DNA from: Gaiellaceae bacterium
GTDB taxonomy: Bacteria; Actinomycetota; Thermoleophilia; Gaiellales; Gaiellaceae
NCBI GenBank assembly: GCA_026002995.1
Contig: BPGK01000001.1
Span: 930,001-994,000 of the forward strand
Direction of reading: 5' to 3'
Length of the DNA stretch: 64,000 nt
The number at the start of each line of letters is the position of its first letter. Within the stretch, counting starts at the first letter, position 1. Below are positions 58,666 to 61,348 of this stretch, piece after piece. Below the pieces are notes generated by a model. The model searched no databases and had not been told where the DNA came from. It saw only the letters and a list, made by a program, of their open reading frames with translations. Position numbers and translations under genes: made by a program.

Positions 58666-59826
58666 CTACCGGGACTTGGGGAGGCCGAGCACGCGCTCGG
58701 CGATGATGTTGCGGAGCACCTCCGAGGTCCCTGCCTCGATCGTGTTGCCGCGACTACGGAGCTGCTGGTACTGCCAGTAGCCACCGTAGGGCGCGTTCTC
58801 CTCCGCGAGGGCCGCGTCAGGCCCGAGGATCTCGAGTGCGAGCTTCGTCACGCGCTGGTTCGCCTCCGACCAGACGAGCTTCGAGATCGACCCTTCGGGC
58901 CCGGGGAGGCCGGTCTTCATGAGCTGCGAGAGCGAGCGGTAGTTCGTGTACCGGAGCGCCTGCATCTCGATCCATTCGCGTGCGATCCGGTCCCGTTGAA
59001 GCGGATCCGCACCGCGGTCGCGGGCGAGGGCGACGAGCTTGCGCACCTGCACCTCGAGCGCTGCCTGGAGCGCGAAGCCGAGCGTGCCCCGTTCGTGCAG
59101 GAGCGTCGTCATCGCGACCTGCCAGCCTCCTCCGACCTCGCCGAGGAGGTTCTCGACGGGAACGCGGACGCTGTTGAAGAAGATCTCGTTGAACTCCGAC
59201 TCGCCCGTCATCTGGCGGAGTGGCCGCACCTCGACGCCCGGGGAGTGCATGTCGACGATGAGGTAGGTGAGCCCCGCGTGCCTCGTCGACTCCGGGTCGC
59301 TGCGGGTGAGGAGGATGCAGAAGTCTGCGATGTGCGCGAACGACGACCACACCTTCTGCCCATCAACCACGAAGTGGCCGTCCTCGAGCCGCGCGCTCGT
59401 CCGGACGCCCGCGAGGTCGGAGCCGGCCCCCGGCTCGGAGAAGCCCTGGCACCAGATCTCGTCGGCGGAGAGGATGGGTGCGAGGTAGCGAGCCTTTTGC
59501 TCCTCCGTTCCGTGAGCCATGATCGTCGGCCCGGCCATTCCGATTCCGATCACGCCGATGTGCGGCGGTGCCTCGGCGCGTGCCATCTCCTCGAGGAAGA
59601 TCGCTTGGTGGGTGTAGGGGGCCCCTCCGCCGCCGTACTCCTTCGGCCAGGTCAGGCCCGCGTAGCCCGCCTCGTAGAGCGCCTTGCTCCAAGCTCGGAG
59701 CTCTGGCCCTTCGAAACGCATCGCGCCGCCGCGGTGACCGCGCAGCTCGTCGGGGAGGTTCGTCTCGATCCAGGCGCGGAGCTCGGCGCGGAATGCCGCC
59801 TCCTCGGGCGTGTCGCGCAGATCCAT
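58666..59826 (-). CDS. Acyl-CoA dehydrogenase
   Basis: The 386-residue flavoprotein has FRAELRAWIETNLPDEL, LTWPKEYGGGGAPYTHQAIFLEEMARAEAP (LTWPKEYGGGGAP and FLEEMARAEAP), the FAD-domain motif WCQGFSEPGAGSDLAGVRT and KVWSSFAHIADFCILLTRSD (KVWSSFAHIADF). The C-terminal domain ends with GGYWQYQQLRSRGNTIEAGTSEVLRNIIAERVLGLP (NTIEAGTSEVLRNIIAE). The ATG at 59824-59826 aligns with the family start. The next gene, the shorter dehydrogenase, starts 5 bp after the stop, so the two probably form a heteromer. The RAYT-flanking repeat lies 27 bp upstream. Confidence 0.92.
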   Translation of the reverse strand: MDLRDTPEEAAFRAELRAWIETNLPDELRGHRGGAMRFEGPELRAWSKALYEAGYAGLTWPKEYGGGGAPYTHQAIFLEEMARAEAPPHIGVIGIGMAGPTIMAHGTEEQKARYLAPILSADEIWCQGFSEPGAGSDLAGVRTSARLEDGHFVVDGQKVWSSFAHIADFCILLTRSDPESTRHAGLTYLIVDMHSPGVEVRPLRQMTGESEFNEIFFNSVRVPVENLLGEVGGGWQVAMTTLLHERGTLGFALQAALEVQVRKLVALARDRGADPLQRDRIAREWIEMQALRYTNYRSLSQLMKTGLPGPEGSISKLVWSEANQRVTKLALEILGPDAALAEENAPYGGYWQYQQLRSRGNTIEAGTSEVLRNIIAERVLGLPKSR

Positions 59827-59852: not shown

Positions 59853-59869
59853 CGCAGGTGTCTGACACC
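59853..59869. repeat. Left flanking copy of the RAYT palindrome
   Basis: CGCAGGTGTCTGACACC, with core palindrome GGTGTCTGACACC, lies upstream of the transposase gene. It is the exact reverse complement of 60499-60515. A surrounding CTCGC/GCGAG pair adds an outer stem. Confidence 0.85.
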
Positions 59870-59952
59870 CCGTGTTAAGCGAGTGTGCCAAGTCCGCGCC
59901 GATGTCTCCACGGCGAGTGCCCGGCGGATCGGCTCGCCGTACGGTTCGTGAC

Positions 59953-60507
59953 GTGGCCCGACCTCCGCGAACCTTCGTGCCAGGTGGCGTGTACCACGTC
60001 TACTCGAGGGGATCCAGCCAACAACCGATCTTTCTGCACGAGGGCGATCGCACGGACTTCCTGATCTGCCTCGACGGCGTGGTTTCTCGGTCGGGGCTCC
60101 GATGTCTTGCCTACTGCCTCATGGGCAACCACTACCACCTCGTAGTGCAAACCGACGACGGGCAGCTCTCGAGCGCCATGAAGGCGTTGAACGGACGCTA
60201 CTCACTGCGGTTCAATCGTCGGCACGGCCGAGATGCCCACCTCTTCAAGAACCGTTTCGGTGCGGTCGAGCAGAAGTCCACTTCACAGCTGCTCTGGGCG
60301 GTTCGCTATGTGATTAGGAACCCCGTCGAGGAGGGGCTCTGCGCGGCCCCAGAGCAATGGCGCTGGAGCAGCTACCGCGCCTCGATCGGGCTCGAGCAAG
60401 CGCCGCGTTTCCTCGACGTCGCCCGACTGCTCTCGTATCTCGGGAACTCGGCCGATCGCGCCAGGATCGCGCTCGTAGGTCTCGTCTCCGATGTGGTCGG
60501 TGTCTGA
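59953..60507 (+). CDS. REP-associated tyrosine transposase (RAYT, Y1_Tnp family)
   Basis: The 184-residue protein is an IS200/IS605-like HUH enzyme of the REP-associated group. It starts RPPRTFVPGGVYHVYSRGS, has the HUH pair H60 and H62 in CLMGNHYHLVV, and the tyrosine region RYVIRNPVEEG with Y119. FNRRHGRDAHLFKNRF lies between. Such enzymes act on single-stranded hairpins and are thought to move REP/REPIN elements. The GTG at 59953 matches the usual start; an ATG at 59902 is possible. Perfect 17-bp inverted repeats lie on both sides, and the right one contains the stop codon. Confidence 0.9.
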   Translation: MARPPRTFVPGGVYHVYSRGSSQQPIFLHEGDRTDFLICLDGVVSRSGLRCLAYCLMGNHYHLVVQTDDGQLSSAMKALNGRYSLRFNRRHGRDAHLFKNRFGAVEQKSTSQLLWAVRYVIRNPVEEGLCAAPEQWRWSSYRASIGLEQAPRFLDVARLLSYLGNSADRARIALVGLVSDVVGV

Positions 60508-60515
60508 CACCTGCG
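60499..60515. repeat. Right flanking copy of the RAYT palindrome
   Basis: GGTGTCTGACACCTGCG is the inverted copy of 59853-59869. The transposase stop codon (60505-60507) is formed by the TGA in its centre. Confidence 0.85.
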
Positions 60516-60568
60516 GGGTCTCTGCAGCGTTGCCAGGGACGCTGTTGCCGCAGTAGGGTTGTACGTCC

Positions 60569-61348
60569 ATGGCGCTCCTCGAGGTTCGGGACGTCACGCT
60601 GCGCTTCGGCGGCATCGTCGCTCTCGACGGCGTGTCGTTCGAGGTCGAAGAGGGGCACGTCTCGGGCCTCATCGGGCCGAACGGCGCCGGCAAGACGACC
60701 GCGTTCAACGTCATCACGCGCCTGTACCGACCCGATTCGGGCGAGGTTCTGCTCGACGGCAACTCGATCCTCAAGGCCGCTCCGCACACGATCGTGCGCA
60801 GGGGGATCGCGCGAACCTTCCAGAACCTGCAGCTCTTCCGCACGATGACCGTTCTCGAGAACGTGCTCGTCGGGGCTCACTCGCGCGGGAGGCGGGCCGG
60901 AGTGCGAGAAGCGCTCGAGATTCTCGACTTCGTCGGGCTCCGTCGGCTTGCCGACTTCCCGGCAGCCGCGCTCCCGTACGGAACGCAGAAGCGCGTCGAA
61001 CTCGCCCGTGCCCTCGCCGCGCGGCCACGCCTACTCCTGCTCGACGAGCCCGCCGGTGGGCTCAATCACGAGGAGGTCGGCGAGCTCGGATCGTTCATCC
61101 GGAAGATCCGCGACGACTTCGAGCTCACCGTGCTGCTCGTCGAGCATCACATGGGGCTCGTCATGAGCATCTCGGACCACGTGAACGTCCTCAGCTTCGG
61201 ACGTAAGATCGCGGACGGCACGCCGGCCGAGGTGCAGGCCGACCCGGCGGTGATCGAGGCCTACCTGGGGAGCTCGGATCCAGACGAGGACGAGCCGCCG
61301 TCGGACGATGCCGAAGCGAGCCCGGCCGAGGAGGGCGGGGCGCCGTGA
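60569..61348 (+). CDS. livG: Branched-chain amino acid-type ABC transporter ATP-binding protein LivG
   Basis: The 259-residue ATPase has VTLRFGGIVALDGVSFEVEEG (VTLRFGGIVALDGV), Walker A GPNGAGKTT, the LivG-typical GIARTFQNLQLFRTMTVLENVLVG (IARTFQNLQLFRTMT), LPYGTQKRVELARAL in place of the classic signature, and Walker B LLLLDEPAGGLN. A C-terminal acidic tail of about 25 residues is unusual. The ATG is at 60569 and the stop overlaps livF. The ligand of the importer is not determined. Confidence 0.92.
   Translation: MALLEVRDVTLRFGGIVALDGVSFEVEEGHVSGLIGPNGAGKTTAFNVITRLYRPDSGEVLLDGNSILKAAPHTIVRRGIARTFQNLQLFRTMTVLENVLVGAHSRGRRAGVREALEILDFVGLRRLADFPAAALPYGTQKRVELARALAARPRLLLLDEPAGGLNHEEVGELGSFIRKIRDDFELTVLLVEHHMGLVMSISDHVNVLSFGRKIADGTPAEVQADPAVIEAYLGSSDPDEDEPPSDDAEASPAEEGGAP

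Follow-up and report, generated by a model that had tools for sequence, protein, structure and literature searches.

A compact RAYT-superfamily transposase unit with inverted palindromic ends in a Gaiellaceae genome, and evidence for its movement between sites

The window, a 64,000-nucleotide stretch of the genome of a soil actinobacterium of the Gaiellaceae (contig BPGK01000001.1), carries between an acyl-CoA dehydrogenase gene and a livG-like gene a transposase gene enclosed by two inverted palindromic repeats. The features of the locus are as follows (handles of the form G000 denote genomes, G000 being that of the window).

58669-59826, minus strand: acyl-CoA dehydrogenase gene to the left of the unit (eight congeners have orthologues with 85-91% identity)
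59853-59869, plus strand: left inverted repeat CGCAGGTGTCTGACACC, that is CGCA followed by the palindrome GGTGTCTGACACC (core 59857-59869)
59873-59879, plus strand: TGTTAAG, a conserved motif of the left end, immediately inside the palindrome (most other units and short copies read TGTYAAG)
59902-60507, plus strand: RAYT/TnpA-REP-like Y1 HUH transposase gene (from domain and profile matches, conservation and fold)
59907-59913, plus strand: TCCACGG, the window's form of the conserved left-end motif TCCACAG (from comparison of left ends)
60499-60515, plus strand: right inverted repeat GGTGTCTGACACCTGCG, that is the palindrome GGTGTCTGACACC followed by TGCG (core 60499-60511)
60505-60507, plus strand: TGA stop codon, part of the right palindrome, which also encodes the final Gly-Val
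60530-60559, plus strand: probable livG promoter, TTGCCA-N18-TAGGGT, identified by inspection and lying just outside the insertion
60569-61348, plus strand: livG-like branched-chain amino-acid ABC transporter ATPase gene, right neighbour

A preliminary description of this DNA reported perfect 17-bp inverted repeats, one of which supplies the stop codon of the gene. Both 17-mers are real and inverted, and the right copy does provide the TGA, but as reverse complements they are inexact: turned to the other strand, the right 17-mer reads CGCAGGTGTCAGACACC and matches the left at 16 of 17 bases, the central base being T in both copies. Most relatives differ in having A at the centre of the left repeat and T at that of the right. 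Since the right palindrome doubles as the coding end of the gene (GGT GTC TGA, or Gly-Val-stop), the T at its centre is pinned. Within the 64-kb window the 13-bp core occurs at these two sites only (0 expected in shuffles), and an Rfam search returned no match. When 45-nt ends are folded in isolation, the palindrome hairpin is the optimal structure at the left end but not at the right. The outer CGCA and TGCG were considered as a target-site duplication and rejected, because the pair is inverted and there is thus no direct duplication.

The open frame spans 59872-60507, and it is uncertain which of three candidates (GTG at 59872, ATG at 59902 or GTG at 59953) is the start; the closest relatives begin at the position of the third. 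The encoded protein, of 201 aa, belongs to the Y1 HUH transposases of the RAYT/TnpA-REP superfamily: it has the HUH motif, a single tyrosine followed by x3-NP, and the Y1 fold. The HUH pair (H77 and H79, codons from 60130) and the catalytic tyrosine (Y136, codon 60307-60309) are invariant in 27 relatives, as is the motif Y136VIRNP. A single-sequence search of PDB sequences and a search of PHROGs gave no match; the Y1_Tnp domain matches at 1.1e-8, the REP_Tyr_transpos model at 7e-18 (64.9 bits, under its curated cut-off of 80), and a profile finds the E. coli TnpA-REP structure 4er8 at 1.2e-7. The same structure is the best PDB match by Foldseek (1.6e-8) to an AlphaFold model with a mean pLDDT of 92. 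In the profile alignment to 4er8, the residues W94, Q95 and R104, which contact GTAG in the E. coli protein, are replaced by F115, K116 and K125, and neither palindrome in the window carries a GTAG. Only 47 residues follow the WSS motif, with no C-terminal extension of the HTH or DnaA_C-like kind.

A search for further palindromes, as the preliminary description had suggested, found 32 copies of GGTGTCWGACACC in the 2.62 Mb of the genome, against 0.05-0.09 expected from composition and 0 copies of a reversed control pattern, which excludes a chance origin of this abundance. By a rough criterion of codon composition, 25 of the 32 lie outside likely genes, and a GTTAAG-like foot is present at 13. 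A second class of solo palindromes (at 128631, 227341, 516456, 1353991 and 2539579; L034, L036, L005, L022 and L030) has CTGTGGAAANNGTGGAAAA, or a tract like it, ahead of the palindrome in place of the TTAAG foot. The companion search for the whole block found no second copy in this genome. Two other Y1 genes of the genome encode proteins 45-47% identical to that of the window and have different ends.

Across the genus, where the comparison genomes are mostly draft MAGs, the palindrome is abundant in G004 (68 copies) and G010 (56), the only other members with a close RAYT, while the other eight members, several of them incomplete as genomes, have 0-7 copies each. G007 and G006 have RAYTs of only about 36% identity, each with a palindrome of another type, GGGGTCWGACCCC, at either end; this palindrome recurs in the genome (34 and 13 copies respectively; none in G000 or G004). 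These distributions bear on a possible regulatory or terminator role of the palindrome, for example as a transcription-factor dyad, with its place beside the gene a matter of happenstance. Many palindromes do adjoin gene ends, and in short copies in G004 (described below) CCGGTGTCTGACACCGG is followed by TTTTTAT in a terminator-like arrangement. However, copy number among congeners (0-68) follows the presence of the cognate RAYT, palindrome type changes together with the RAYT, and presence is polymorphic at orthologous junctions. We therefore reject this reading, which we regard as very improbable.

Spread of the palindrome across phyla was likewise rejected: among 80 RAYT loci drawn from all GTDB species, it adjoins the gene in the five closest, all from Actinobacteria MAGs, and in 0 of the 75 more distant, and it occurs nowhere else in the 403 kb of those loci. 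In a tree of RAYTs, 11 with GGTGTCWGACACC form one clade (support 99/82). Four more (L071, L231, L253 and L264) fall in a second, separate group, which could reflect convergence or exchange of repeats. Six further members of the family (G087, G091, G093, G094, G096 and G102) carry 33-71 palindromes each; the one RAYT locus inspected in each of G087 and G102 has no palindrome beside the gene.

Is the unit a resident of long standing at its present junction? The gap between the acyl-CoA dehydrogenase gene and livG is filled in the window's genome (742 bp) and empty in G006 and G007 (76 bp each) and in G004 (86 bp). The promoter-like TTGCCA-N18-TAGGGT is common to the window, the empty G006 and G007 sites, G003 and G009. 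The gene is thus not fixed here in all relatives. Fixation at this site and a lack of further palindromes were the two outcomes that the preliminary description had named as counting against mobility, and neither was found; related units lie elsewhere in G004 and G010. That an ancestral unit stood at this site and was later deleted in G004, G006 and G007 is nevertheless conceivable, in that the empty G004 locus contains a palindrome-like sequence, CGGTGTCGGACC, which could be the scar of an older insertion, and that G009 has at the same place an element of about 150 bp, MITE-like, bounded by palindromes (GGTGCCAGACACC and GGTGTCTGACACC) and lacking a RAYT. The possible scar means that loss and gain at this site are not fully separable. 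Against deletion, the 76-bp spacers of G006 and G007 keep the livG promoter intact and hold no remnant, and other loci show the same pattern of presence and absence with different occupants, which repeated gain fits better; we consider ancestral presence improbable. A toxin-antitoxin-like gene pair, recognised by inspection, follows the G009 element, and G003, G005 and G010 have other insertions in this gap. As four congeners (G003, G005, G009 and G010; L094-L097) carry insertions here other than the RAYT unit, the junction looks tolerant of insertion.

The main evidence for movement comes from other loci. G004 has two related RAYTs (C34 and C48) and G010 one (C38), with a mutual protein identity of 57-65%, all in units bounded by palindromes and all ending in a Gly-Val-stop that the palindrome encodes. 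A NuoF-FdhA-like junction is empty in G007 and G002, with 10-25 bp between the flanking genes, and occupied in both G010 and G004; the two units there face opposite ways and are not sisters in the tree, so that a single inherited insertion behind G004C48 and G010C38 can be rejected. The sister of G010C38 is instead G004C34 (100/92), which lies at a different locus, a hydratase/racemase junction. This second junction holds the unit in G004, a 152-bp short copy in G010, one exact and one degenerate palindrome in G000, a solo palindrome in G009 and G001 and a degenerate one in G003; no palindrome or unit was found there in G002, G006 or G008. Units, short copies and solo palindromes thus recur at the same junctions, while the location of the unit differs between species. 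Where empty junctions are 10-25 bp, the boundaries of insertion fall within about 20 nt of the palindromes. This pattern of presence and absence at orthologous sites, with boundaries at the terminal repeats, is the one expected of an autonomous transposon. In one G004 unit (L069, 2494-3165) the outer sequence AGATAAACACC appears to give the neighbouring enoyl-CoA hydratase gene its stop codon, TAA.

These observations have to be weighed against the published view of RAYTs as domesticated, single-copy transposases with no evidence of gene movement (PMC8266576, PMC6006769). A rival reading in keeping with that view is a static REPtron with its flanking palindromes as substrate: the gene would have been acquired horizontally by different species and have stayed put, and only palindromes and short copies would move. 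The single block copy in the window's genome agrees with this, as does the divergence of the RAYTs, which is far greater than that of neighbouring host proteins (85-91% identical). Yet sister RAYTs lie at different loci, one junction holds two non-sister units in opposite orientation, boundaries of insertion coincide with the palindromes, and horizontal acquisition itself requires an insertion step. A static gene thus seems to us unlikely, if slightly less so than ancestral presence at the window junction.

Shorter elements without a RAYT accompany the units. At least 15 inverted palindrome pairs of 151-176 bp are present in G004, and G010 has some of about 130 bp. The G004 copies are on average 56% identical, yet three motifs persist in them: ATAAA on the outer side of the left palindrome, TGTCAAG and TCCACAG on its inner side. 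Because palindromes were the criterion of the search, with orientation set by the GTYA motif, conservation of the palindromes in these copies is not independent evidence, whereas that of TCCACAG and ATAAA is. The same left end, palindrome - TGTYAAG - ... - TCCACRG, lies upstream of RAYT genes, including that of the window. Lying some 45-50 nt inward of the left palindrome (left ends of L072-L086; 59907-59913 in the window), TCCACAG resembles the 3' part of a DnaA box (TTNTCCACA), and a link between the element and the replication initiation protein is possible. At one end of some G004 short copies (L073, L074 and L077), GGTGTCTGACACCGGTTTTTAT resembles an intrinsic terminator; insertions of short copies may end transcription of neighbouring genes.

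Sequence comparison between species, the basis of our case for movement, indicates that the whole unit has moved between sites in the window lineage, and by analogy with its family we infer that it moves itself, rather than having been moved. We accordingly read 59853-60515, with a probability of roughly 0.78, as a compact transposable unit in which inverted palindromic ends enclose a gene for a RAYT-superfamily Y1 HUH transposase. The preliminary description's complete transposable unit gains support from the 32 palindromes, the empty sites and the related units at other loci. The protein would recognise a hairpin formed by the palindrome in single-stranded DNA, along with the neighbouring TGTYAAG and perhaps also TCCACAG; Tyr136, to judge from the family, would do the cutting, and what the transposase moves would be either its own gene or, acting in trans, the short copies and the solo palindromes. 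A fuller version, in which the transposon moves its own gene, has palindromes derived from TIRtron repeats and re-enters junctions where palindromes or short copies serve as landing sites, we offer only tentatively. The single block copy in the window's genome and the mere 57-65% protein identity among copies in the genus give no sign of a recent burst, and the species are too divergent for a target site or a strand-level junction to be defined.

Inverted repeats around RAYTs, stop codons in those repeats and dispersed copies are already known (PMC2817692, PMC3733652); what is unusual here is that sequence comparison points to movement of the unit as a whole. The text of the papers searched does not mention the palindromic ends seen in this lineage, which is weak evidence because a search of text misses figures; the exact palindrome matched only unrelated primers. 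With the unit, short derivatives, solo palindromes and empty sites all at the same junctions in sister species, whether RAYTs transpose, and by what route, becomes testable. The lineage also allows tests of how ordinary inverted repeats give rise to palindromic, REP-like ones, and of how transposase and repeat change type together.

Among described systems the closest is the TIRtron or TIRYT, a RAYT gene with GGGGWSAS inverted repeats (PMC3733652), which is Quentin subclass 2.1 and corresponds to Bertels RAYT group 1 (PMC6006769). The nearest relatives of the window unit by sequence, from many phyla and up to about 50% identical, have the terminal inverted repeat GGGGTCAGGTCTTG, which fits GGGGWSAS, and in many of them the TGA stop likewise lies inside the right repeat, as in AAG ACC TGA CCCC (21 of 79 long forms and 8 of 24 short forms). 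The window unit differs in having a palindrome as its terminal repeat (GGTGTCWGACACC; in sister species GGGGTCWGACCCC), in that its lineage has dispersed these repeats in tens of copies along with short derivatives lacking a RAYT, and in having moved between loci. Its GGTGTCWG does not fit the TIRtron consensus, whereas GGGGTCWG in G006 and G007 does, and the two repeat types are probably homologous. The C-terminal HTH or Bac_DnaA_C-like extension reported for subclass 2.1 is absent from the window clade: after WSS the window protein has 47 residues, most cross-phylum relatives bearing the GGGGTCAGG repeat about 140-190. As to a possible place in subclass 2.1, the closest relatives include long forms flanked by GGGGTCAGG, in a tree whose deep forks are weak and which leaves out the Quentin reference set. 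On the simplest reading, the window palindrome would be a TIRtron repeat that turned self-complementary while its stop-bearing TGAC was kept, and the protein would have lost its HTH extension.

REPtrons, in which a RAYT or TnpA-REP is associated with GTAG-tagged REPs (Nunvar 2010, PMC2817692; E. coli 4er8; Corneloup 2021, PMC8266576), resemble the unit in their Y1 HUH protein, in the two inverted palindromes that flank the gene and are dispersed in the genome, in a palindrome copy number that tracks the cognate gene, and in BIME/REPIN-like pairs. The window unit lacks the GT[AG]G foot and the W94/Q95/R104 contacts, its lineage has a low number of repeats, and in place of gene immobility there are signs of movement of the unit. 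With IS200/IS605 elements (IS608, ISDra2) it shares the Y1 catalytic fold and the organisation of a self-contained mobile gene bounded by hairpins. Its termini are inverted palindromes, in contrast to the subterminal, non-inverted hairpins of those elements; its protein has the class 2 RAYT signature Y-x3-NP, and near-identical multiple copies are absent from its own genome. The inverted palindrome pairs of 129-176 bp in G004 and G010 are similar to REPINs and MITEs, but differ in sharing a left end of about 60 nt with the RAYT units, and for this reason look like internally deleted derivatives of the unit.
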